Shown here: in pieces, positions 34,218-49,475 of the stretch
Position numbering within the stretch: the first letter of the stretch is position 1
How the letters are laid out: every line of letters begins with the position of its first letter
Source of the DNA: an uncultured Gelidibacter sp.
Lineage (GTDB): Bacteria; Bacteroidota; Bacteroidia; Flavobacteriales; Flavobacteriaceae
Direction: 5' to 3'
Length of the DNA: 64,000 bases
Assembly (NCBI RefSeq): GCF_947500795.1
Contig: NZ_CANMTE010000002.1
Location: 62,001-126,000, forward strand
Notes under the pieces: model-generated
The model's input: the letters and a program-made list of their open reading frames with translations, nothing else
What the model was told of the DNA's origin: nothing
Database searches by the model: none
Program-made: the position numbers and the translations under genes

Positions 34218-36656
34218 ATGATCGCATCTAATAGAAAAATCACATTTAAGGTCCTTTTTGGCTATATCGCGCTAGGCATTTTAGCAGCGATTTCAGGATG
34301 GCTTGTGTTTTCTGAACTTAGAAATTTCACGGCTGCGCAAACGGACGATTTAAAAGACCGTGATAAACTGATTAGAATTAGCGGTTTGGTAGCTGATATT
34401 TATGAGAACGAAAGCTTATCAAGAGCAGCGCTTCAACTTAATACAAACTCTCAATTCAACGCGTATCTACTACAAAATGACAGTCTCCTTTCCACCATTG
34501 ACACGCTCACTAATTTAGTTAATAACGATTATCAAAAGGCGCTATTAGATAGTGTTAAGGTCATTTTTGACAAAAAATATACCGATTTAAACGAATTACG
34601 CCGTCTTAAGGAAAATAATTCGTCTGAAAAATCTATTGAACTGACCATTAATAAACTTAAGAGTATTGACCCTATTCTCGGGAAATTGACTTTGGAAGAT
34701 TATGTGGAAAATCCGAAGTCGATTGACCCTAAAACCAAAGAAGTTCTGGAAGGGTTCATTCAATTTTCCAATGATTTAAAAGCGAAGGATTCGGTGAGTA
34801 AAGTGGATCAAAAGCAGATTGATTCCATTGTGACGATTTCCCGAAACATGTTGAACAAAATTCAGAGAGATGCAGCATCTCAAAAGCAATCTTTAATGTT
34901 GAAAGAGCGCGAATTGGTAGAGAATGATTTGACGACTTCTAGGCAATTGCGCAACCTCCTGCGTGCGTTAGAGCGCGAAATGGTAGCCTCATCGCAAAGC
35001 ATTATGACGCAACGTCAAAAAGCCTTGGACAGAAGTACCACCATTATTTACTTGGCAGCATTAGTCAGTTTCATTTTAGTGATAATTTTCACGATTGTCA
35101 TCTTAAACGACTTTTGGAAAAGTCAGCAATACCGCGAAAAACTTGAACAATCGAATGCTTATACCAATTCGCTTTTAAAAAGTAGGGAGCAATTGATTAA
35201 TATGGTAAGTCATGATTTACGCTCGCCTTTAAGCACGATTTCCGGGTATAGCGAGCTGCTTCAAAAAACAGCACAGAACACAAAAGAAGTTAATTATTTG
35301 GATCATATTAAGAATGCTTCGAGCTATATGAGCCAATTGGTAGATGATCTTTTGGAATTCTCAAAACTTGAGGATGGCCATATTACAATTGAAAGCATTC
35401 CTTTTAATCTGCGCACCATTTTAGACGAAACAAGTTCAAATATCAAAGCGATTTATGATGATAAACCGATTGAACTTTATGTTAAACATGCCCCACAGCT
35501 CGACCGCACCATCGTTTCCGATCCTTTCAGAATTAAACAAGTGCTCTATAATTTAATTGGAAACGCCTACAAATTTACTGAGGAAGGCAGCATTACAATT
35601 AGCACCCAATTACACTCCAAAAACAATGTACATACCGTAACCATTATCGTTTCAGACACCGGAATTGGTATCAGTAAGGAAAAGCAAGAGGATATTTTTA
35701 ATGCATTTACCCAAGTCAACCAAACCAAAAACTCCAAGAATTCAGGTTTTGGATTAGGATTGGCCATTTCCAAAAAGTTGATGCACATTTTAAAAGGGAA
35801 ATTAACCTTGGAAAGCACACCAGGACGCGGCAGCAGATTTGAAATATCATTCCCTGTAAAACTTTCTGATGCTGTTTTGGAAACGACACCAGCTATTAAA
35901 AAGACATCCCATTTTAAATTGAAGGCGGTTATTGTGGATGATGACGCCTCATTACGACAATTAATTACCGATGTGTTGGGGCAACACAACATCACAACCT
36001 ATACGTTTGAAGACGCCAAAGCTGCTCTTGCCGATATGGAAAACCTGAAATTTGATGTTGTAATTACGGACATCCAATTGCCAAAGATGAACGGCTTTCA
36101 TTTTATGGAAACCCTTAAAAAGACGCCATTTTATAAGCAGCAACCAATTATCGCGATGACTGGAAGAACAGATATTGCTACTGAAAATTATATTGAAAGT
36201 GGCTTTTCAAAAGTGGTTTTCAAACCGTTTGCATCGCATATATGGTTTGATATTTTAAGCGAATTATTTCCGAAGAGTATTACAAAACCAGAAGAAAGCA
36301 AAAAAACGCAATCCTATAGCTGTGACTATTTTGATACTAATTCCATCGCTGGCTTTTTAAATTATGATGAAGAGGCACTGAAATCGCTTTTAGAGTTGTT
36401 TTTAAAAGACACTAAAAAACATATGGCCGAGCTAAAAACAGCAGTCCAGCAAAATGACCTTAAAACCATCACCGATTTAAGTCACAGAATGCTGACCATG
36501 TTCAAGCAATTAGGCGCACATACCATAGTGCCTTTTTTAATAAAATTAGAGCGCACACCCGTTGCCGACAAAGCGCTTGTGGATGCTTTAGAGAAAGAGC
36601 TTGACCCTTTTTGCAAAGCTATGGAAGCTTATATTACTCCAAATTATACTCCTTAA
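34218..36656 (+). CDS. Hybrid sensor histidine kinase with REC and HPt domains
   Basis: 812 residues. Two transmembrane helices (about 10-30 and 275-298) bracket a helical periplasmic sensor region rich in coiled-coil sequence. The dimerisation domain has phospho-acceptor His332 ('SHDLRSPLSTISGYSEL'). An ATPase domain follows with 'NLIGNAYKFTEEG', 'DTGIGI' and 'GFGLGLAI'. The receiver has Asp618 ('VITDIQLPKMNG'), and the HPt domain has His756 ('DLSHRMLTMFKQLG'). This is a full internal His-Asp-His relay, needing an external receiver as output. The NtrC-type gene next door, converging with a 23-bp overlap, is the obvious candidate. Confidence 0.93.
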   Translation: MIASNRKITFKVLFGYIALGILAAISGWLVFSELRNFTAAQTDDLKDRDKLIRISGLVADIYENESLSRAALQLNTNSQFNAYLLQNDSLLSTIDTLTNLVNNDYQKALLDSVKVIFDKKYTDLNELRRLKENNSSEKSIELTINKLKSIDPILGKLTLEDYVENPKSIDPKTKEVLEGFIQFSNDLKAKDSVSKVDQKQIDSIVTISRNMLNKIQRDAASQKQSLMLKERELVENDLTTSRQLRNLLRALEREMVASSQSIMTQRQKALDRSTTIIYLAALVSFILVIIFTIVILNDFWKSQQYREKLEQSNAYTNSLLKSREQLINMVSHDLRSPLSTISGYSELLQKTAQNTKEVNYLDHIKNASSYMSQLVDDLLEFSKLEDGHITIESIPFNLRTILDETSSNIKAIYDDKPIELYVKHAPQLDRTIVSDPFRIKQVLYNLIGNAYKFTEEGSITISTQLHSKNNVHTVTIIVSDTGIGISKEKQEDIFNAFTQVNQTKNSKNSGFGLGLAISKKLMHILKGKLTLESTPGRGSRFEISFPVKLSDAVLETTPAIKKTSHFKLKAVIVDDDASLRQLITDVLGQHNITTYTFEDAKAALADMENLKFDVVITDIQLPKMNGFHFMETLKKTPFYKQQPIIAMTGRTDIATENYIESGFSKVVFKPFASHIWFDILSELFPKSITKPEESKKTQSYSCDYFDTNSIAGFLNYDEEALKSLLELFLKDTKKHMAELKTAVQQNDLKTITDLSHRMLTMFKQLGAHTIVPFLIKLERTPVADKALVDALEKELDPFCKAMEAYITPNYTP

Positions 36657-37986
36657 GCTTGTTATAAAGTGTTTTTCTAGAAAAATTGAGAAGTTTTGCA
36701 GCCTTTGTTTTGTTGTTGTTTGCTTCTTGAAGAGCTTTAACAATCAGTTCTTTTTCGTTGTCTTTTGTAGAAAAAGAGCGTGTAGTCGCTTCTTTTTGTG
36801 GCGATGATAATTCTTGTGGCAAAACTTCCTTTTGAATGACCTCACCGTTGGTCAATAAGGTAGCGCGTTTGATCACGTTGGAAAGTTCACGCAAATTGCC
36901 AGGCCAAGAATAATTTTGGAATATTTTTAGGACTTCAGGTGAAAACCCGATGATGGATTTGTTCAATTGCTGATTGGCATTCTCTAAAAAGAAATCGGCG
37001 TAAATTATTAAATCATCACGGCGTTCCTGTAAACTCGGTACTTTAATAGAGAACTCATTTAATCGGTGGTACAGATCTTCTCTAAAATCGCCTTGCTCAA
37101 CAGCTTGCAATAAATCTTCATTTGTAGCCGTCAATAAACGAATATCAACTTCAATTTCCTCATTACTCCCAATTGGTTTTATGCGACGTTCTTGAAGGGC
37201 GCGCAACAACTGAATTTGGTTTTCATAAGTAAGGTTTCCAACCTCATCTAAAAACAAGGTACCGTGATTGGCAGCTTCAAAATGGCCTTTTTTATCATTA
37301 ATAGCACCTGTAAACGATCCTTTTTTATGGCCGAAAAATTCGCTGGCTGCAATCTCTTTAGGGATAGCGCCACAATCGACCGCTATAAAAGGCCGCAGTT
37401 TTCTTGAACTGCTCAAATGAATAGCTTTTGCCACAACCTCTTTTCCTGTTCCACTTTCGCCAGAAATTAAAACAGACATGTCCGTTGGCGCCACAAGATT
37501 GATATGGTCATATAACACTCTGGATGCGGCACTAATACCGGTAACCAAATTAGATGTAGATTTTGAAGTTTCTGAAGTTTCAGAAGTAATTGGAGTTGTT
37601 GAAGTACTTTGTTTTGTCTCAGCACTCGGTTTTAGGAGCGCATTTTTGACCACCTGTAAAACTTCTTCAGGATTAAAAGGTTTTGAAATATAATCAAAAG
37701 CGCCTTCTTTCATGGCCTTAACGGCAGTAGAAACCTCAGCATAACCCGTCATTAATACTACAGGAATGGACGCGTCTTTATTCTTAATATGATTTAAAAG
37801 TGAAATTCCATCGCCATCAGGAAGCCTAAGATCTGCAAACACCAAATCGAAGGTCGATTCCTTTACTTTTAATTTAGCATCTTCTAGCGTATAAGATGAT
37901 ACAACGGAATGGTGGTGACGTTCCAAAAAACGTTTCAACATTTCAGAAAAGCTAACATCGTCTTCAACCAAAAGAATGGTACTCAT
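36634..37986 (-). CDS. Sigma54-dependent response regulator, NtrC family
   Basis: 450 residues: receiver with Asp52 ('VFADLRLPDGDG'), AAA+ domain with 'GESGTGKE' (Walker A) and 'GTLFLDEVGNL' (Walker B), and a Fis-type DNA-binding helix-turn-helix at the end ('NNNKTKAAKLLNFSRKTLYNKLKEY'). The sigma54-contact loop reads GSFTGA rather than GAFTGA, a recognised natural variant. A Ser/Thr-rich linker lies near residues 120-145. It likely activates sigma54 promoters, possibly the one before the PepSY-like gene upstream. Confidence 0.93.
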   Translation of the reverse strand: MSTILLVEDDVSFSEMLKRFLERHHHSVVSSYTLEDAKLKVKESTFDLVFADLRLPDGDGISLLNHIKNKDASIPVVLMTGYAEVSTAVKAMKEGAFDYISKPFNPEEVLQVVKNALLKPSAETKQSTSTTPITSETSETSKSTSNLVTGISAASRVLYDHINLVAPTDMSVLISGESGTGKEVVAKAIHLSSSRKLRPFIAVDCGAIPKEIAASEFFGHKKGSFTGAINDKKGHFEAANHGTLFLDEVGNLTYENQIQLLRALQERRIKPIGSNEEIEVDIRLLTATNEDLLQAVEQGDFREDLYHRLNEFSIKVPSLQERRDDLIIYADFFLENANQQLNKSIIGFSPEVLKIFQNYSWPGNLRELSNVIKRATLLTNGEVIQKEVLPQELSSPQKEATTRSFSTKDNEKELIVKALQEANNNKTKAAKLLNFSRKTLYNKLKEYNLE

Positions 37987-40033: not shown

Positions 40034-40510
40034 ATGAGAACCTCATTAGAAGCAGCCAGGGAACAAATCCATATCGATACGGTTAATGTTCTACAAAGTA
40101 TTATTGAAAAAAATTACGATGCCGAAAAAGGCTATAAGAAAGCAATGAAGGATGCCAAAACACCTGAATTGAAGAATTTTTTAAAACGACAAGCAGTTCA
40201 ACGCAGTCATTTTGCTACAGCCATTGACAAAGAATTGCATCTGTTAGACGAAACGCCAAGAGACAAGGGCAGTATTGCCGGAACACTACATCGTGCTTGG
40301 ATTGACATCAGAACGTCGGTCACAGGAAAAGATGATGAAGCCGTTCTTAGCGAAGTTTTACGTGGTGAAACCGCAAGCGTCAAGGAATATGAAGAATTGA
40401 TGAAACATAATACCTTGGTGCCTCATGCCTCTAATGTCTTAAAATCGCAATTAAAAGAATTGCAAGGAACATTGGAACGTGTAAAATCTCTAAAAGATAT
40501 TCAAGGCTAA
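40034..40510 (+). CDS. Four-helix-bundle PA2169/DUF2383-like protein
   Basis: 158 residues, all helical, with ferritin-like spacing of Glu and His: 'NVLQSIIEKNYDAEKGYKKAMKDAKTPELKNFL', 'RSHFATAIDKELHLLDE', 'DDEAVLSEVLRGETASVKEYEELM'. This matches PA2169-type DUF2383 proteins, which appear in stress-induced gene sets. Metal binding is plausible but not shown. It heads the regulatory region at 40-49.5 kb. Confidence 0.78.
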   Translation: MRTSLEAAREQIHIDTVNVLQSIIEKNYDAEKGYKKAMKDAKTPELKNFLKRQAVQRSHFATAIDKELHLLDETPRDKGSIAGTLHRAWIDIRTSVTGKDDEAVLSEVLRGETASVKEYEELMKHNTLVPHASNVLKSQLKELQGTLERVKSLKDIQG

Positions 40511-40874: not shown

Positions 40875-41321
40875 ATGAAACACACTAAACTACACTTACT
40901 GCTTGCTGATGATGATTTGGACGATTGCGATTTTTTTAAGGAAGCAATGGAAGAATTACCTTATGAGTGCAACCTCTCCATTGTTCATAATGGCGTAGAA
41001 CTCATGAATTTGTTAGAATCTGAAAATTCTGAACTTCCTAATTTAATTTTCTTAGACCTTAACATGCCTCGTAAATCGGGAATGGAATGTATCCGGGAAA
41101 TTAAATCTTCAGGTACATTATCCCATATTCCCATCATTGTATATTCCACTTCGCTTGATCCGTCTGTAGTAAATGAACTGTACGAAATAGGTGCACTTCA
41201 TTACATTCAAAAACCAGCCGAATTTGCGTGCATTAAAAAAGTCATTGAAAAAGTGCTGAAAATCTTTAAAACCGATTTATCACCAACGTCTTCAAGAGAA
41301 CATTTTATTATTCAACCATAG
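40875..41321 (+). CDS. Single-domain response regulator (Rcp1-like), copy 1
   Basis: 148 residues, only a receiver domain: acidic 'LLLADDDLDDCDFF' at the start, phospho-Asp61 in 'IFLDLNMPRKSG', Ser/Thr switch in 'IIVYSTS', and Lys in 'YIQKPAE'. There is no output domain, as in Rcp1 and other phytochrome-linked regulators. It lies 7 bp upstream of the PAS kinase gene. It is the same length as the second copy at 45633, with its Asp at the same position. Confidence 0.93.
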   Translation: MKHTKLHLLLADDDLDDCDFFKEAMEELPYECNLSIVHNGVELMNLLESENSELPNLIFLDLNMPRKSGMECIREIKSSGTLSHIPIIVYSTSLDPSVVNELYEIGALHYIQKPAEFACIKKVIEKVLKIFKTDLSPTSSREHFIIQP

Positions 41322-41328
41322 GTAGTGC

Positions 41329-44300
41329 ATGGGTATTAGCAAAACAACACATAATTTTTTAGATGGTGGCGGCGAAATGGGGAAACTCATTAGAGCTAAA
41401 GATTGGAGTAAAACCCCTTTGGGAACACCTGAAAATTGGCCTCAAAGCTTACGTACCATGGTGAGTGTGATGCTCGATAATCCTTTTGGGATGTATATAG
41501 CTTGGGGTAAGGAATATACTCAAATATATAATGATGGCTACCGTCCAATTTTAGGTGCAACCAAACATCCTGAAGCTTTAGGCATTAGCACCAGAGAAAC
41601 ATTTTCTGAAGTATGGCACATTATCAGCTCGATGTTTGACAGTGTTATGAAGGGTGAGGCCATCGGTTACCCAGATTTAATGCTGCCTTTAAATAGGAAT
41701 GGCTATGTGGAAAAATGTTATTTTGATTTTGCTTATAGCCCCATAAGAATGGATTCGGGCGAAGTTGGCGGTGTTTTAGTAACAGTCATTGAAACCACCA
41801 ATAAAAAATTAGCTGAAATTGAGTTAAGAGAGAGTAAAAATGAAATGGAGTTTGTAATTGAGAATACCCAATTAGGCACCTTTGATTACAACCCTATAAA
41901 CAACAAGTTTACTTGCAATAACCGCTTAAAAGAATGGTTTGGATTGCCTATAAACGACGTAATAGAATTATCCCACGCCATAAATGCAGTTGTAGAAGAC
42001 GACAAACAACGTGTCATTGAAGCCATTGAAAATGTCTTAAAACCAGATTCAGAAGGGAGCTATAACATAGAATACACGATTGAAAATCCGATTTCTAAAA
42101 AGCAAATTATTGTCCACGCCAAAGGGCGAGCTTGGTTTAATGAATTTAAACAAGCCTACCGCTTAACTGGAACCCTGGAAGATGTTACCGAACGTGTATT
42201 ATCCAGAAAAAAGATAGAAGAAAGTGAGCGCAATTTAAGGCTCATGATACTTCAAGCGCCTGTAGCCATAGCTATCATAAGAGGTGACGATTACAAAGTG
42301 GAGATTGCCAACAAACTAGCACTCAATCTTTGGGGAAGAACCGAACAACAGGTATTGGACACGCCTTTATTTGAGGCTATGCCGGAACTTGAATCACAAG
42401 GCATAAGAGACTTTCTGGACGATGTTAGCAAAACCGGAAAACGTTTTGAAACTTCTGAAATGCCCGTCACATTTTCGGTGAACGATGAGTTGAGCACGAT
42501 TTTTATTAATTTCTCTTTTGAAGCATTATTTGATGTTGATGGCTCTATTAACGGAATCATGGCGATTGGTATTGATGTGACACCTCAAGTTGAAGCACGT
42601 AAAAAAATAGAAGATAGTGAGCAGCATATGCGCGCTTTGGTGGATAGTGCTCCATTTCCAATTGGGGTGTATGTAGGTGAAGAATTGCGCATCTCATTGG
42701 CTAATCAATCTATCATGGATACCTGGGGAAAAGGTAATGACGTAGTAGGCCAATTATATCCGGACATTTTACCAGAATTAGAAAATCAAGATGTCTATAG
42801 TCAAATTAGAAAAGTGCTACATACCGGAACGGCATTTCATGCAAAAAACCAAAAGATATATCTTGTCAAAAACGGTCAATTAGGTGCTTATTATTTTAAT
42901 TACAGTTTTACCCCATTATTTGATAGCGCAGGAAATGTATCTGCTGTAATGAACACCGCCGCCGATGTGACCGAACTTCATGAGGCTAAGCAAAAGGTTG
43001 AAGAAAGCGAAAAGAAGTTCCGAGATTCTGTAATGCAGGCTCCATTAGGCATTGTGATTTTTAGAGGATCAGACCATGTCATTGAAATGGCAAATGATCA
43101 TTATTTGCAGTTAATAAATCAAACAAGAACGCAATTTGTAGGCAAGCCTCTTTTTGAATCCTTACCGGAGGTTAAAGATAAAATGCTTCCTATAATTTGT
43201 GATGTTTATGAAACTGGCAATGCCTTTTATGGCTATGAATTCCCAATCAAAATAAACCGCCATAACACCATTGAAACCAGTTATTACAATTTTGTTTACC
43301 ATCCTTTAAAGGAAAACGATATTATAACAGGTATTATGGTCGTTGCCACTGAAGTTACGGCTACCGTAAAAGCAAAACAGCTTATAGAGGAGAATGAAGA
43401 GAAATTAGAGCTTATTATTGAAGCGAGTGATTTGGGTATATTTGATGTCAATTTAAAAACAGACGACGTTGTTGTTTCCGATCGATGTTACGAAATTTTA
43501 GGCTTTCCAGATAAACATCATCTCACGCGAAATGATCTCATTTCCAATCATTACCCAAATGACCTAAGATTAAGGGCAAAGGCATTTGAAGAAGCCTATA
43601 AAACTGGAACGCTTCGTTATCAATCTAGAGTCATCTACAATGACAACTCTCTACATTGGATAGACGTCAAAGGAAAGGTGTATTATGACGATCAGAATCA
43701 ACCAGAACGGATACTTGGTACGGTAAGAGATGTTACTGAAGAACGCACGTTTCATCAACAATTATTAGAGTGGGAAGAGAAATTCAGACTCTTGGCTGAT
43801 TCCATGCCGCAACATGTTTGGACATCAGATCCACAAGGTAATATGAATTACTTCAATCAGTCTATCCTTGAATTTACCGGACTTACATTAGATGAAATTA
43901 ATGATGAAGGTTGGATTCAGATTGTACATCCTGATGAACGCGAAGAAAACATTAGACTGTGGACTGAAGCTATCCATTCAGGAAATGACTTTTTAATAGA
44001 ACACCGTTTCCGGATGCATACTGGCGAGTACCGTTGGCAGTTAAGTCGCGCCATTCCTCAAAAAGACGAAGACGGCACTATAAAAATGTGGGTAGGCAGC
44101 AGTACGGATATCCAAGACCATAAGATGTTTACTTCGGAGTTAGAGAATATGGTACAGTTGCGTACGGCTGAGTTGCAGCAAAAAAATATTGATCTTGAAA
44201 ACATGAATAAGGAATTGCAATCCTTCGTCTATATTTCCAGTCATGATTTACAGGAACCGCTAAGAAAAATTCAAACATTTTCATCCCGTATTGTAGAAAC

Positions 44301-44913
44301 CGAATACGAACACTTATCCGACACTGCCAAGAGACACTTTACAAGAATGCAGCAGTCGGCGTATAGAATGCAAAAATTAATACAGGATTTAATTGCTTAC
44401 TCGCGTACCAATGTGCAAGAAACAAAATTCGAAAATATCAACTTACAGGAGGTTGTTAATGATATAAAAGAAACATTGAGCGAAGAACTGGAACAAAATG
44501 ATGTCACCATAAACTTAAACAATATGTGTGATGTTAGGATTATTCCTGTGCAGTTTAAGCAAGTGATACACAACCTCACAAGCAACTCCATAAAATTTGC
44601 CAAAACAGACGTTCCGATAATTATAGAGATCACTTGCGATATAGTAGATGGAAAGTCGGCCGGAATCGCGGCATTATCTAAAAACAAACACTATTGCCAT
44701 ATAAAATTTTCGGACAATGGCATTGGATTTGAGTCTCAATACAGTGACAAAATATTTGAAGTTTTTCAGCGTCTACATAGTAAAGATGACTATACAGGAA
44801 CCGGCATCGGACTTGCTATTGTAAAAAGGATTATTGAAAATCATGAAGGAATAATTTTAGCCAACGCACGTTTAAATGAAGGTGCGGAATTTGATATTTA
44901 CATTCCGACATAA
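41329..44913 (+). CDS. Large multi-PAS sensor histidine kinase
   Basis: 1194 residues, cytoplasmic (no transmembrane helix). About seven PAS units follow each other. The first ('WSKTPLGTPENWPQSL') runs to residue 160, and the others start near 166, 294, 424, 555, 683 and 810, each introduced by a '(K)IEESE'-like linker. The kinase core has His972 in 'SSHDLQEPLRKIQTF', N-box 'VIHNLTSNSIKFA', 'DNGIGF' and 'GTGIGLAI'. It should pass phosphate to the single-domain regulator just upstream. The signal is unknown. The kinase core is very similar to that of the gene at 46076. Confidence 0.93.
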   Translation: MGISKTTHNFLDGGGEMGKLIRAKDWSKTPLGTPENWPQSLRTMVSVMLDNPFGMYIAWGKEYTQIYNDGYRPILGATKHPEALGISTRETFSEVWHIISSMFDSVMKGEAIGYPDLMLPLNRNGYVEKCYFDFAYSPIRMDSGEVGGVLVTVIETTNKKLAEIELRESKNEMEFVIENTQLGTFDYNPINNKFTCNNRLKEWFGLPINDVIELSHAINAVVEDDKQRVIEAIENVLKPDSEGSYNIEYTIENPISKKQIIVHAKGRAWFNEFKQAYRLTGTLEDVTERVLSRKKIEESERNLRLMILQAPVAIAIIRGDDYKVEIANKLALNLWGRTEQQVLDTPLFEAMPELESQGIRDFLDDVSKTGKRFETSEMPVTFSVNDELSTIFINFSFEALFDVDGSINGIMAIGIDVTPQVEARKKIEDSEQHMRALVDSAPFPIGVYVGEELRISLANQSIMDTWGKGNDVVGQLYPDILPELENQDVYSQIRKVLHTGTAFHAKNQKIYLVKNGQLGAYYFNYSFTPLFDSAGNVSAVMNTAADVTELHEAKQKVEESEKKFRDSVMQAPLGIVIFRGSDHVIEMANDHYLQLINQTRTQFVGKPLFESLPEVKDKMLPIICDVYETGNAFYGYEFPIKINRHNTIETSYYNFVYHPLKENDIITGIMVVATEVTATVKAKQLIEENEEKLELIIEASDLGIFDVNLKTDDVVVSDRCYEILGFPDKHHLTRNDLISNHYPNDLRLRAKAFEEAYKTGTLRYQSRVIYNDNSLHWIDVKGKVYYDDQNQPERILGTVRDVTEERTFHQQLLEWEEKFRLLADSMPQHVWTSDPQGNMNYFNQSILEFTGLTLDEINDEGWIQIVHPDEREENIRLWTEAIHSGNDFLIEHRFRMHTGEYRWQLSRAIPQKDEDGTIKMWVGSSTDIQDHKMFTSELENMVQLRTAELQQKNIDLENMNKELQSFVYISSHDLQEPLRKIQTFSSRIVETEYEHLSDTAKRHFTRMQQSAYRMQKLIQDLIAYSRTNVQETKFENINLQEVVNDIKETLSEELEQNDVTINLNNMCDVRIIPVQFKQVIHNLTSNSIKFAKTDVPIIIEITCDIVDGKSAGIAALSKNKHYCHIKFSDNGIGFESQYSDKIFEVFQRLHSKDDYTGTGIGLAIVKRIIENHEGIILANARLNEGAEFDIYIPT

Positions 44914-45058
44914 TTCATTTTATTAAAAATCAAAACGGTTCAGCACCAAATTGAAAGTAAAAAATTGATTAAAATTGAGCGGTATACTACGCTTATGGCG
45001 ATTAAAATCGAATAAATAATTAAAATTATAATTACATTAGTCAACCATTAAATCCCTT

Positions 45059-45622
45059 ATGAAAGTCTTTATTAAATTCGATTTTGCCCAATTTTGTTCC
45101 AAAGTTCTCGATGAAAAGCTTTGCGAACTCGGCATCAAGTATAGGATGTTAAATTTTGGTGAGCTTGAGTTTTTGGAACCGGTTTCTGCTGATCAAATGA
45201 AGGCTTTTGAGACCGTTCTCAATGATTATGGCATTGAGAAAATAGAAAATCAAAAGGTTATTTTGGTTCAGAAAATAAAAGATACCATTGTGGATATGGT
45301 ATTTAATGCAAATGAGTCCATCGCGGTAAAAAGTTCCGTTTATCTTGCCGACAAATTGGGGCATAGCTATGGATATCTATCAAATTTATTCTCTGAAGTG
45401 ACCTACACGTCAATAGAAAATTTTATCATTTTACAACGTATCGAATACGCTAAATCTCTCATTACCAACACTGATTTATCATTAACAGAGATTGCGTTTC
45501 GATTGCAATATTCAAGTGTCGCGCATTTAAGCACACAATTTAAAAACACAACAGGTATTACTCCTACTACCTTTCAGCGTATTATCGCAAAAAGAAGAGC
45601 GCTAAAAAATAATAAAGATTAA
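45059..45622 (+). CDS. AraC-type regulator with HMA-like N-terminal domain
   Basis: 187 residues. The C-terminal about 100 residues are an AraC helix-turn-helix pair ('LADKLGHSYGYLSNLFSE', 'SLTEIAFRLQYSSVAHLSTQFKNTTGITPTTFQR'). The N-terminal about 75 residues ('MKVFIKFDFAQFC...LGIKYRMLNFGELEFLEP') have the beta-alpha-beta pattern of a heavy-metal-associated-like fold, a form I know from other Bacteroidota AraC proteins near kinases. The metal-binding CxxC is not complete here (a single Cys13). It lies 145 bp after the first kinase and 10 bp before the second response regulator. Confidence 0.85.
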   Translation: MKVFIKFDFAQFCSKVLDEKLCELGIKYRMLNFGELEFLEPVSADQMKAFETVLNDYGIEKIENQKVILVQKIKDTIVDMVFNANESIAVKSSVYLADKLGHSYGYLSNLFSEVTYTSIENFIILQRIEYAKSLITNTDLSLTEIAFRLQYSSVAHLSTQFKNTTGITPTTFQRIIAKRRALKNNKD

Positions 45623-45632
45623 AAAGTAAAAA

Positions 45633-46079
45633 ATGCAAGAAGATTTCACATATGTGGTTTTGGCAGATGATGATGAAGACGACCGCCTGTTCTTTGTAGA
45701 GGCATTTGATGAGCTTAAAATACAAACCAAAGTAGACGTTTATAAAGATGGCTTAGAGCTTATGGATGCGCTAAATCACCCCGACGCTGTATTGCCGAAC
45801 ATCCTTTTTTTAGACTTAAATATGCCTAAAAAGTCGGGTATTGAATGTTTAATAGAAATAAAAAGCAACAAAAAGTTTAAAGACATTGCCATTGCCATAT
45901 ATTCTACCTCTGCATCGGAGGAAGATATTGAAGACACCTTTGTTCAGGGCGCGAATATTTATATCAAAAAACCGAGTGATTTTAATGATCTTAAAAAGAT
46001 TCTATCAGATGTGGTCACCATTAACTGGCAATACCATACCAACGCATTAGATAAAGACAATTTTTTATTACGTTTATGA
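45633..46079 (+). CDS. Single-domain response regulator (Rcp1-like), copy 2
   Basis: 148 residues, receiver only: 'VVLADDDEDDRLFF', Asp61 in 'LFLDLNMPKKSG', 'IYSTS' and 'YIKKPSD'. Its stop overlaps the next kinase start by 4 bp (ATGA), so the two are translationally coupled and surely partners. Confidence 0.93.
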   Translation: MQEDFTYVVLADDDEDDRLFFVEAFDELKIQTKVDVYKDGLELMDALNHPDAVLPNILFLDLNMPKKSGIECLIEIKSNKKFKDIAIAIYSTSASEEDIEDTFVQGANIYIKKPSDFNDLKKILSDVVTINWQYHTNALDKDNFLLRL

Positions 46080-47869
46080 ACCTGCCCTTAAAATTTATTG
46101 CCCGCTCAGAACGCTTTCTAAAAATAATTTTTGGGGCCAGCCTATTCATTGTATTAGTGATGGGCGGCGTTGCCTATAAATACATAAAAGAACTTTCCAA
46201 GTCTATAGATGATGTGCAACATAATTATCAGGTCCATATTGCTTTAGAAAGAATGGCCTCCGCACTTAAAGATGCTGAAAGTGGGAAGAGAGGTTTTATG
46301 ATTTCGCGAGACTCTACCTATTTAGAACCGTTGCTAGTAAGCAGTTCCGCTTTTGATAATAGTTTGAAAGACTTAGAAGAACTCACTAAAAACAATCCTG
46401 AACAACAAAAAAACATTGCCGAATTAAAAATAAAAGTTGACAAGAATATCGAGATTTTTCAGAAGACATTGGAGCTTTCAACCAGTAACGACTTCGATTC
46501 TCCTGAATTCATAGCGGCTTTTAGAGAAGGAAGGCAAACGATGAATAGTGTGCGTTTTAAAATCAATCAAATGACCGCACATGAAAATGATGTGCTTAGT
46601 TTGGCAAGAGAGATAAGCTCCAAGCGTTTGTCCAACGCCCCAATGTTAGTGTATTATGTGCTGATTTTATCGCTCCTAATTTTATTATTGACCTATCTTC
46701 AAATTACTAAAAACTTAAAGATTTTAAAGGAAAAGAATGAACTTCTGGAAACCTTTAAAAAATCGACTATCCAATCTGAAATCATAAGCAAACACGGCAA
46801 TTGGATTTGGCATATAGAGGAAAACATTTATGAATATTCTGATAATTTGTATCGCTTATTAGGAGAGGAACCGCAATCTTTTGACCCTAACTTAGATAAT
46901 TACCTATCCTTTGTCCATCCCGATGATGTTGAAAAATTGATGGAGCATGTTGAGGAAATGATGGAAAATGAAGATCTGCCATTCATCCACTATAGAATCA
47001 TTCAAAAAAACGGCGCTATAAAGCATTTTAAAGCCTATGCCAAATTATTGGTCGATTCCGATGGGCATAAACGACTTTTAGGCACGACGGCAGATATTAC
47101 GAACGAAATTGAAAATTACCGATTAATAGAAAAACGAAATCTAGAATTAGAGCGCAGTAATAAAGAGTTGTCTTCCTTTAACTATGTTGCCAGTCATGAT
47201 TTGCAAGAACCATTACGAAAGATTCAAACCTTCTTATCACGATTGGAGGACAAAGAAAAAGATAAATTATCCAACAGTGGGAAACTTTATATAGAGCGTA
47301 TAAAATCGTCGTCATCAAGAATGCGTTCCTTAATTGATGATTTACTACAGTTTTCGAGAACAAATAAATCTGAGGAAGCGTTTGAAGAGTCAAACCTCAA
47401 TATATTGTTAGAAACTGCCAAGCACGATTTAGCCGAAATAATTGGAGATAAAAGAGCGCGTATTACCTCTGACTCGATGCCTTCAATGAAGGTGATCCCG
47501 TTTCAAATAAAACAGCTGTTCCTAAATCTACTCAGTAATTCATTAAAATATAGTCGTGAAAATACGCCGCCTGCCATCACCATTACCTATTCTCTAACGA
47601 ATGCAAGCGATTTGCCAAAAATCAAATACTCCAAGTTTAATACCTACCATACTATAACCGTACAGGATAATGGGATTGGCTTTGACCAAGAGTATGCGGA
47701 AAAGATTTTTATTCTATTTAATAGACTTCACAATAAAAACGAATATTCTGGTACGGGCATCGGTCTTTCTATTTGTAAGAAAATAGTTGATAACCATAAC
47801 GGCTATATCACTGCTGTAGGCGATACCAACACAGGGTCCACCTTTACAGTATACCTCCCGAAGACTTAA
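46076..47869 (+). CDS. CHASE3-PAS sensor histidine kinase
   Basis: 597 residues. Transmembrane helices at about 17-37 and 187-207 flank a CHASE3-like periplasmic helical sensor ('DAESGKRGFMISRDSTYLEPL'). One PAS domain (about 235-345) follows, then the kinase core: His374 in 'ASHDLQEPLRKIQTFLSR', 'LFLNLLSNSLKYSRE', 'DNGIGF', 'GTGIGLSI'. The core closely resembles that of the 1194-residue kinase upstream, pointing to module duplication with swapped sensors. Coupled to the receiver gene by ATGA overlap. A strong terminator follows. Confidence 0.93.
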   Translation: MNLPLKFIARSERFLKIIFGASLFIVLVMGGVAYKYIKELSKSIDDVQHNYQVHIALERMASALKDAESGKRGFMISRDSTYLEPLLVSSSAFDNSLKDLEELTKNNPEQQKNIAELKIKVDKNIEIFQKTLELSTSNDFDSPEFIAAFREGRQTMNSVRFKINQMTAHENDVLSLAREISSKRLSNAPMLVYYVLILSLLILLLTYLQITKNLKILKEKNELLETFKKSTIQSEIISKHGNWIWHIEENIYEYSDNLYRLLGEEPQSFDPNLDNYLSFVHPDDVEKLMEHVEEMMENEDLPFIHYRIIQKNGAIKHFKAYAKLLVDSDGHKRLLGTTADITNEIENYRLIEKRNLELERSNKELSSFNYVASHDLQEPLRKIQTFLSRLEDKEKDKLSNSGKLYIERIKSSSSRMRSLIDDLLQFSRTNKSEEAFEESNLNILLETAKHDLAEIIGDKRARITSDSMPSMKVIPFQIKQLFLNLLSNSLKYSRENTPPAITITYSLTNASDLPKIKYSKFNTYHTITVQDNGIGFDQEYAEKIFILFNRLHNKNEYSGTGIGLSICKKIVDNHNGYITAVGDTNTGSTFTVYLPKT

Positions 47870-47891
47870 TACACCTCAAGTATTTCATTTT

Positions 47892-47927
47892 AAATCACCC
47901 CATATCCTATATATGGGGTGATTTTTT
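47892..47927 (+). terminator. Rho-independent terminator
   Basis: A perfect 14-bp stem (47892-47905 and 47911-47924), 5-base loop, T run, 23 bp after the kinase stop. Confidence 0.93.
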
Positions 47928-48042
47928 ATGCACTTATGGGAATTCTATAACCAATTCTGAAAATACTGTAAGAGACAACACCGAGTAATGAGTCATCTTT
48001 GTATTGAACGCAATAAGCCACAAAATGCACGAGGATTATAAT

Positions 48043-48189
48043 ATGAAAACATTCTTTTATACTGTTTCCGTCCTCATGATTATTATATGGGCCTTGAGCT
48101 ACTTTGTATATTCATTGAAGCCATCAGTACACTTATTATTGCCATTAGCAGTTTTAATGGGAATTATAGGAATGAAGAAGAAAGAGTAA
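48043..48189 (+). CDS. Small membrane protein, DUF5670/lmo0937-like
   Basis: 48 residues with two hydrophobic helices ('TVSVLMIIIWALSYFVY', 'LLLPLAVLMGIIGM') and a basic end. The pattern resembles lmo0937-type (DUF5670) proteins, which often sit in general-stress gene sets. I chose the ATG at 48043, which has a GAGG purine stretch 8 bp upstream and drops 13 unlike N-terminal residues. Confidence 0.62.
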   Translation: MKTFFYTVSVLMIIIWALSYFVYSLKPSVHLLLPLAVLMGIIGMKKKE

Positions 48190-48287
48190 TTAATTAAAGA
48201 ACACATCATGTCTTACGTGTTATAATGATCATAACTATAAAGACGAGAATTAGGAAACATTATAACTCACTATAAAAAAAATAAGTT

Positions 48288-48413
48288 ATGAAAACCAATC
48301 AAGAATCACAATTAAGACAATACGCCAGGGTAGCACGAGTGTTTCCAAAAACTGGAATTACAACCACAAATGCGAGAATTAGAGTGTTGGCTACAACCAA
48401 ACCTCAAGTTTAA
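48288..48413 (+). CDS. Putative 41-residue protein
   Basis: A small ORF with ATG at 48288 and TAA at 48411-48413. The product begins 'MKTNQESQLRQYARVARVF', is rich in Arg and Thr, has no Cys and no hydrophobic helix, and has a calculated excess of basic residues. It lies alone between the DUF5670-like gene and the AraC gene, on the same strand as both. Base use looks coding, with an A-rich leader as in neighbouring genes. No family recognised. Confidence 0.4.
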   Translation: MKTNQESQLRQYARVARVFPKTGITTTNARIRVLATTKPQV

Positions 48414-48461
48414 CATTTACAGACATTATATTTTAATAATTAACCATAAAACCATCACATC

Positions 48462-49475
48462 ATGATAACAATTGCATCAAAAGTTAACGATTTGTATTCT
48501 TTTTTCGAAGCACTCAAAAATGAATTGGGTGGTACGATAGAACAAAATACAACCGAGTGCAAACTCGAAATAAATAACGATTTAGCCCGCGGGAGCATTC
48601 GCTCGATCGCTTTAGAGGATGGCATCGCCGTACTAGAATTTAATTTGATTGCCTTTCAGGATATCCAAATTACAATTGATGCTCTTTTAGAAGCTCATGT
48701 CAATTTTATGTATTGCTCAAAAGGAAAGTTGACACAGTCTTTCGATAAAGACAGTGAGACAAATACTATTGATGCTTTTCAGACAAGTATCGTCGCCAAC
48801 ATTATATCTGGACAAAACATTATTATGTTAGAAAAGGATATCGAAACCGTAGCAACGCTTATTTCTGTTAATACGTCTCACGAAGGAAACAACAGTTCCC
48901 AATGGAGCAGCAGTTTAAGAGAAGCCTTTATCGCAGATAAAACCGACGACTATCTATACATTGGTTCTTACAACCTTAAAATAGCTGAAAACATAAAACA
49001 GCTACAATGTATCAAACAAGAAGGTTTGGTGCGTCAATTGTTGACTAAAGGCATTGTAAACGTCATTTTAGCGCTCGAAATTGATCACCATAATATGGAT
49101 ATTGAAAATTTAGACATGGAACCTACAACCTTGACTAAAATGGAAATCGGTCTAATTGCGAAACTTACAGAGTATATCAATGAGTATCCAGATTTAGATC
49201 ATAAGGTTGAAAACCTAAGCGAGAGAGTTGGTTTATCAGCCGCCAAATTGCAAGAAGGATTTAAGTTTCAACACGGATTGACTATTTGCGAATATATCCG
49301 CTCCGTAAGATTGACAAAATCAGAGGACTTAATCATCAATACCGACTTGAACATTTCAGAGATTGTTTATAGTGTAGGATTTACCAGCAGAAGCTACTTC
49401 TCTAAAATATTTAAGGAACGTTTTGATTGTACTCCGAGCGATTACAAAAAAAATAAGTTAGCTGTATCAGCATAA
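48462..49475 (+). CDS. AraC-family transcriptional regulator with unknown N-terminal domain
   Basis: 337 residues. The last about 100 form the AraC DNA-binding domain ('LSERVGLSAAKLQEGFKFQHGLTICEYIRSVRL', 'NISEIVYSVGFTSRSYFSKIFKERFDCTPSDYKKN'). The first about 220 residues match no ligand domain I recognise and are longer than needed for a cupin sensor. Last gene of the regulatory region, ending in two consecutive hairpins (49487-49512 and 49522-49552). Confidence 0.85.
   Translation: MITIASKVNDLYSFFEALKNELGGTIEQNTTECKLEINNDLARGSIRSIALEDGIAVLEFNLIAFQDIQITIDALLEAHVNFMYCSKGKLTQSFDKDSETNTIDAFQTSIVANIISGQNIIMLEKDIETVATLISVNTSHEGNNSSQWSSSLREAFIADKTDDYLYIGSYNLKIAENIKQLQCIKQEGLVRQLLTKGIVNVILALEIDHHNMDIENLDMEPTTLTKMEIGLIAKLTEYINEYPDLDHKVENLSERVGLSAAKLQEGFKFQHGLTICEYIRSVRLTKSEDLIINTDLNISEIVYSVGFTSRSYFSKIFKERFDCTPSDYKKNKLAVSA

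Follow-up and report, generated by a model that had tools for sequence, protein, structure and literature searches.

In a stretch of 64,000 nucleotides from an uncultured Gelidibacter sp. (contig NZ_CANMTE010000002.1, positions 62,001 to 126,000; the window), an AraC-family protein of 187 amino acids (aa) and the single-domain receiver encoded directly after it are likely to form one split regulator, which would be fed by a sensor kinase, would bind an operator and would activate stress-protection genes. The unit of AraC-type protein, receiver and kinase probably turns on such genes, which would make it a candidate for the role of general stress regulator in a large group of bacteria. The two proteins are called here ARA187 and RCP2, and a second AraC-type protein and a second receiver in the same run are called ARA337 and RCP1, the four names having been coined in this analysis.

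In the mechanism proposed, ARA187 and RCP2 would be two subunits of one regulator: the CHASE3-PAS kinase would phosphorylate Asp61 of RCP2, and RCP2 would bind ARA187, with the N-terminal HMA-like domain of the latter as the most likely site of contact, and set its activity. ARA187 would bind a direct repeat with a period of 21 base pairs (bp), which lies ahead of the promoter at a constant distance, and turn the stress-protection genes on. In the genome of the window the one strong operator would drive DUF5670, a 41-aa open reading frame (ORF) and ARA337, which would be a second-tier regulator under ARA187, and RCP1 with its PAS kinase would be an extra input beside the core. The principal elements are:

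45059..45622, + strand: ARA187, AraC-family protein of 187 aa, with an N-terminal HMA-like domain without metal loop at about residues 1-63 (by a chain of profiles and by fold) and a C-terminal HTH_18 domain at 96-174 (Pfam, E 4e-18)
45633..46079, + strand: RCP2, Rcp1-type single-domain receiver of 148 aa (Pfam Response_reg; D13, D14, D61, S91, K113), putative partner of ARA187
46076..47869, + strand: CHASE3-PAS sensor kinase of 597 aa, whose start falls within the RCP2 stop (Pfam; kinase tree)
47938..47974, + strand: predicted operator, direct repeat of AATTCTATAAC (TATAAC at 47946-47951) and AATACTGTAAG (TGTAAG at 47967-47972), period 21 bp, matrix score 31.1, a perfect match to the pattern given below
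47994..48001, + strand: CATCTTTG, which we take to be a -7-like promoter box; its TTTG starts 25 bases past the second half-site
48043..48189, + strand: small membrane protein of DUF5670 (lmo0937-like), whose gene is the first after the operator (Pfam DUF5670, E 1.8e-5; start codon picked from the sequence)
48462..49475, + strand: ARA337, second AraC-type protein, 337 aa (Pfam HTH_18)

Conservation of the pair

The pair was followed through 40 regions of 11-20 kilobases (kb), of which 39 surround ARA187 matches from 120 genomes drawn in the family and one surrounds the copper-type relative of ARA187 in the genome of the window, and through the named loci, which are the best 80 of at least 579 relatives from a scan with an alignment of 17 ARA187 sequences, all receiver-linked but one (L084). 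In all 80 of these loci the next gene after ARA187 is an Rcp-type receiver on the same strand; the two genes overlap in 16, and the gap exceeds 34 bp in two. What follows the pair is a CHASE3-type kinase in 61 loci, a gene on the opposite strand in 13, another ORF in five and the end of the contig in one. The same adjacency was found in 21/21 cases of a second set, made up of 20 regions from a draw of the phylum plus the locus L368, which overlaps the first set in part (L385 is from the genome of L152, and L383 from that of L167).

The full run of RCP1, PAS kinase, ARA187, RCP2, CHASE3 kinase and ARA337 is present in the seven named Gelidibacter loci (7/7, L117-L123). Gelidibacter loci are also the closest of those named to the ARA187 of the window, and a close ARA187 was found in eight of the nine genomes of the genus search; the ARA187-receiver pair itself extends far outside the genus. 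Because the run recurs within Gelidibacter and the pair far beyond it, the cluster is not due to chance. Its conserved core is ARA187 plus RCP2, smaller and older than had been assumed in the original prediction, which was made from the letters of this DNA alone. That prediction had proposed comparing gene order in relatives: the order is conserved, and the contrary outcome, a lost order with AraC proteins independent of the receivers, did not occur. Other genes frequent in ARA187 loci are those of Dps, CsbD, AI-2E, DUF4142, OMP, DUF5670, YtxH and holin-like proteins.

A unit of another type, with an ARA187 relative carrying the motif MVSxRC, a PAS kinase and a single-domain receiver of another sort, about 144 aa long, was seen in L218, L223, L224, L226, L237 and L243, the order in L224 (KYMVSNRC) being ARA187, PAS kinase and a receiver of another kind. 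Locus L368 (genome G075, contig C19) holds a diverged run of ARA187, receiver, PAS kinase, operator and ARA337, accompanied within 18 kb by three additional Rcp-type receivers and other kinase-like ORFs.

A receiver that outlasts its kinase

RCP2 consists of one Pfam domain and has the residues D13, D14, D61, S91 and K113 of an Rcp1-type receiver; the two 148-aa proteins of the run that had been read as receiver-only, with Asp61 in each, are found at 40875-41321 and 45633-46079. The five residues are intact in each of the 75 distinct ARA187-adjacent receivers that lie beside a kinase. Among the 21 without an adjacent kinase, Asp61 has been lost in 16, with the receiver gene still present, 15 of these being from Chryseobacterium or Weeksellaceae and the other, L092, having lost it independently; Asp61 is kept in five (L083, L087, L213, L214, L216), with a PAS kinase slightly further away in L213 and L214. 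In the second set the phosphorylation site is intact in 15/15 receivers with a kinase and lost in 6/6 without one.

The median ratio of nonsynonymous to synonymous substitution rates (dN/dS) of the receiver is 0.135 in the kinase-less Chryseobacterium (31 pairs), 0.032 in Flavobacterium (31) and 0.054 in Gelidibacter (5), and that of ARA187 in the same genera is 0.025 (22 pairs), 0.031 (16) and 0.058 (2); the kinase-less Chryseobacterium receiver is therefore still retained, under weaker constraint. Since it adjoins ARA187 in 80/80 loci and is kept after the loss of both kinase and Asp61, the lone receiver, to judge from these comparisons, very likely acts through the AraC protein, and the earlier supposition that a receiver signals to an AraC protein is well supported.

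It could also be supposed that ARA187 and RCP2 are merely co-transcribed. The receiver would then serve either an unlinked target or the kinase, as its phosphate sink or in feedback, and ARA187 would sense a small ligand of its own. The contact between the two is indeed a predicted one, the N-terminal domain of ARA187 seems to derive from a fold that binds a ligand (a metal), and Asp61 is kept in the five kinase-less receivers mentioned above; against this, the receiver stays beside ARA187 under purifying selection where both kinase and Asp61 have been lost, as they have in Weeksellaceae and, independently, in L092, so that simple co-transcription appears improbable. With regard to the split regulator, no fusion of receiver and ARA187 was found among the matches listed in the phylum search; the one long frame among them (G323, 315 aa) was considered and rejected as such, as it has no receiver label and precedes a copper ATPase.

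The operator and its distance to the promoter

A spaced-word search of 306 upstream sequences yielded a two-box motif, which was then counted in intergenic DNA as T[AG]TAA[CG]-N-T[AG]TAA[CG] at spacings of 5-40. As the direct repeat TRTAAS-N15-TRTAAS, with its period of 21 bp, it has 72 distinct copies in the 102 receiver-linked loci (only identical copies were merged, and many of the loci are closely related), against a mean of 1.5 and a maximum of eight at the 35 other spacings, and 59 other ARA187 loci have 21 copies at N15, against a mean of 1.0 and a maximum of six. The half-site approximates to AATnnTRTAAC in the receiver-linked loci, and the other ARA187 loci carry a different left box. 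In 72 of the 78 sites of receiver-linked loci that lie outside ORFs a TTTG starts exactly 25 bases past the second half-site, whereas in shuffled flanks a TTTG is found anywhere at 18-34 in 11%. The nearest gene downstream of these 78 sites is ARA187 (15), c11, of DUF4142 type (14), ARA337 (12), DUF5670 (7), Dps (7) or CsbD (5).

With a scoring matrix built from 74 sites, Gelidibacter excluded, the window contains a single site, of score 31.1, which is the sole match above 11 (best of 20 shuffles, 15.0) and precedes DUF5670 and ARA337; because of this upstream operator, the ARA337 gene looks like a target of ARA187. The statistics support an operator of AraC type, to which ARA187 is predicted to bind; this operator, with its fixed distance to the promoter, and the receiver that outlasts its kinase are what is new here. 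By plain alignment of the DNA upstream of ARA187 no clear site was found in Gelidibacter, and in Flavobacterium the alignment gave chiefly a promoter box and a hairpin that has a run of T.

The fixed distance to the promoter box would suit a promoter element in general use in the group, with no relation to ARA187. In the 120 family genomes, the strict pattern has 15 copies in 12 genomes (four in the backwards control), three of them inside ORFs (G039, G071, G108); the 12 perfect copies that are intergenic all belong to ARA187 loci, in nine genomes, 11 at no more than 4 kb from ARA187 and that of G014 at 8 kb, beside ARA337. This already disfavours the general element, which is scarcely credible. 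Another proposal, in which the repeat would be bound by ARA337 and ARA187 would be a bystander, would fit autoregulation, 12 of the 78 intergenic sites being upstream of ARA337. Yet copies stand at the ARA187 operons of Chryseobacterium, eight genomes of which gave no match to a full-length ARA337 (E 1e-12); seven genomes with a strong ARA337 and no receiver-linked ARA187 seen (G037, G045, G069, G072, G091, G093, G113; weaker ARA187 relatives only partly inspected) have no perfect operator; and other ARA187 loci share the spacing with a different left box. A site of ARA337 is thus very improbable, and ARA187 remains the preferred candidate for binding.

Genes behind the operator

With at most one mismatch, eight Flavobacterium genomes have 104 matches against 17 in the control, and the operators there precede genes of Dps, CsbD, catalase, DUF4142, PNPOx-like and DUF2383 proteins. 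ARA337 is present in six of these eight genomes, with an operator just upstream in five of the six, though on another contig or far from ARA187. In the fetched stretches 86 site instances were viewed, some duplicated and a few inside ORFs. Twenty downstream proteins were compared with Pfam (12 above the family cut-off, one only below it, seven with no match at E 0.001), giving catalase, PNPOx-like, DUF4142, DUF1810, Gly-zipper, DUF2383, alpha/beta hydrolase, DUF6766, glucose/sorbosone dehydrogenase, CinA and DUF7218, and, in Chryseobacterium, a copper ATPase; Dps, CsbD and ARA337 stand behind operators at other sites.

Other relatives of ARA187 are present in the eight Flavobacterium genomes, of copper type only in seven and, in G530, of MVSxRC type together with a fragment (weaker matches were partly inspected), and therefore the stress-gene sites are best ascribed to the receiver-linked ARA187. 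The MVSxRC type occurs in five of the eight Chryseobacterium genomes, weaker matches again having been inspected in part. The sites at copper genes may belong to the copper-type relatives. In Chryseobacterium (L306, L307, L308, L313, L325, L372, L373) a perfect operator stands apart from ARA187, ahead of a conserved 126-aa protein whose neighbours are copper-type genes.

The domains of ARA187 and its copper-type relatives

The DNA-binding domain of ARA187 is clear both from HTH_18 (E 4e-18) and from Foldseek, whose matches are AraC-type DNA-binding domains with two helix-turn-helix (HTH) motifs. As HTH matches dominate the Foldseek result for the whole model, the N-terminal domain was folded alone, giving a model with a mean confidence (pLDDT) of 87.5 in which DSSP assigns two helices and a beta hairpin and leaves the outer strands unassigned. 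Its top match in the PDB is the metal-binding domain of CopA (probability 0.99, but E 0.05). In profile comparisons the copper type matches the CopA HMA domain (91%, E 1e-6) and the receiver type matches the copper type (99.3%, E 9e-21), with only 5% for the receiver type directly against HMA; the Pfam HMA model, run on ten proteins, gave matches below the cut-off to L107 (E 1.8e-4) and L112 (E 0.027) and none to P0004. The modelled domain thus resembles the copper-chaperone (HMA) fold minus its metal loop.

The position of the MxCxxC loop reads KFDFAQFC in the ARA187 of the window, which is not an HMA loop. Among 163 distinct relatives surveyed, both loop cysteines are kept in 21, with a copper ATPase next in 11 of them and a receiver next in none; neither an MxCxxC nor an MVSxRC loop is found in any of the 97 that stand directly before an Rcp-type receiver (0/97). 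A further 43 MVSxRC sequences fall outside the receiver label, their contexts being stress, alone, other, contig end, and kinase plus another receiver, and L084 is a loop-less protein without adjoining receiver. The genome of the window also has a copper-type ARA187 (NMVCDRC; L116, 9788-10354), with a two-mismatch operator at its 3' end (L376, 2545-2576), ahead of a multicopper oxidase-like gene.

A history can be put forward tentatively, in which a copper-sensing HMA-AraC regulator would have exchanged its input, losing the metal loop and gaining a stand-alone phospho-receiver as ligand. Split in this way, it would have come to govern the general stress genes of Flavobacteriia and related bacteria as their master regulator, with ARA337 one tier below; the Chryseobacterium receiver would have decayed to a pseudo-receiver that would still be needed as a subunit. 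The ARA187 tree is unrooted, and the order of copper and receiver types is not given by it.

Two kinase-receiver modules

The remaining elements of the run and its margin are:

40034..40510, + strand: DUF2383/PA2169-family four-helix-bundle protein (Pfam, E 1.2e-35; TIGR02284), a stress-type neighbour
40875..41321, + strand: RCP1, Rcp1-type receiver of the accessory module, 148 aa (Pfam; clade apart from RCP2)
41329..44913, + strand: PAS kinase of the accessory module, 1194 aa, with seven PAS domains (Pfam; PAS-kinase clade)
48288..48413, + strand: 41-aa ORF kept in Gelidibacter (41-aa homolog in seven loci)

What had been observed in the letters is confirmed, and all the genes lie where they had been placed. 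The sensors do differ, the first kinase having four PAS_4 and three PAS_3 stretches, for which seven is a fair count, and the second the architecture CHASE3-PAS_3-HisKA-HATPase_c; the kinase core motif that had been quoted is common to both, and the two kinases are 38% identical over 336 residues. Both AraC-type proteins, 187 and 337 aa long, are likewise confirmed (the N-terminal 220 residues of ARA337 matched no Pfam family), as are DUF2383 and DUF5670, with neighbours of stress type.

The pairs had further been taken for a duplicated, rewired system. A recent local duplication followed by rewiring would agree with their position and with the identity of the receivers (42% over 130 residues) and of the kinases; it is contradicted by both trees, quick trees with long branches flagged, in which each copy of the window groups with other genera. 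RCP1 goes with receivers that precede a PAS kinase and do not follow ARA187 (L078, L214, Gelidibacter), RCP2 goes with ARA187-linked receivers from other genera, and the kinase cores split in the same way. A recent origin is thus most unlikely and, as the pairs sit in separate clades with copies from other genera, RCP1 and its PAS kinase are best described, on this phylogenetic evidence, as an old paralogous module beside the core of ARA187 and receiver, not a fresh duplicate.

The 41-aa ORF between DUF5670 and ARA337 is basic, and its sequence is kept across Gelidibacter loci. Upstream of the cluster there is a hybrid histidine kinase (34218-36656, + strand) whose 3' end overlaps a convergent NtrC-like regulator gene (36634-37986, - strand).

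Points against the proposed split regulator

Several observations weigh against the reading proposed here. Given that the query sequences were receiver-linked, bar L084, and that the receiver-linked ARA187s form one clade in the tree, the 80/80 count shows the long retention of a single ancestral pairing, not many events. Asp61 persists, as said, in five kinase-less receivers. A loop-less ARA187 occurs in at least 18 of the 120 genomes and a perfect operator in about half of these, leaving nine without; enrichment in the eight Chryseobacterium genomes is weak (42 matches with at most one mismatch against 23 in the control). In the genome of the window there are one perfect site, five matches with two mismatches, and 42 with at most three against 32 in the control, and a large regulon there was rejected in view of this single strong operator. 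Autoregulation of ARA187 in the window was rejected as well, the matrix scan giving no operator upstream of ARA187, RCP1 or DUF2383. The copper-type relatives seem to use the same type of operator, and cross-talk is possible. Finally, DNA binding, the contact of receiver with ARA187, phosphotransfer and the role in stress are inferred.

Relation to known systems

Pairs of kinase and single-domain receiver are known from cyanobacteria as Cph1-Rcp1. RCP2 matches Rcp1 (1jlk, 1i3c) and RcpA (1k68) at E of about 1e-14, and its gene also lies beside that of a kinase; here, however, the sensors are CHASE3 or PAS, no phytochrome domain being found with Pfam, and an AraC gene precedes the receiver. In YesN and AraT, receiver and AraC HTH are joined in one chain. 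The working of a receiver with an AraC-type HTH would be shared, and the HTH fold of ARA187 is closest to the DNA-binding domain of YesN (3lsg), but here each of the two has a gene to itself, and ARA187 carries an HMA-like domain of its own. Escherichia coli AraC at araI1-araI2 uses two direct-repeat half-sites 21 bp apart near the promoter, an arrangement repeated in the predicted operator, although the half-site sequence and the sensor domain are unlike and ARA187 is without the arabinose-binding domain. The copper-locus relatives (NMVCxRC type) are homologous to ARA187 over its full length and have operator-like sites by CopA or multicopper oxidase genes; they differ in keeping the CxxC metal loop and in having an adjoining receiver in 0/21.

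The general stress systems SigB of Bacillus and PhyR-EcfG of Alphaproteobacteria would be alike in their input through kinase and receiver and in their types of target (Dps, catalase, CsbD), but here there is no sigma or anti-sigma factor, and an AraC-type protein is in that place. To our knowledge, Bacteroidota are without SigB, RpoS and EcfG, and we know of no master switch for general stress genes described in them; a word search of titles and the beginnings of abstracts found no work on such a switch. With a regulator, a receiver, a kinase, an operator and a list of targets in hand, the question of general stress in these bacteria becomes testable in a tractable Flavobacterium, and the receivers that stay with their DNA-binding partner after the loss of kinase and phospho-Asp offer a natural experiment.

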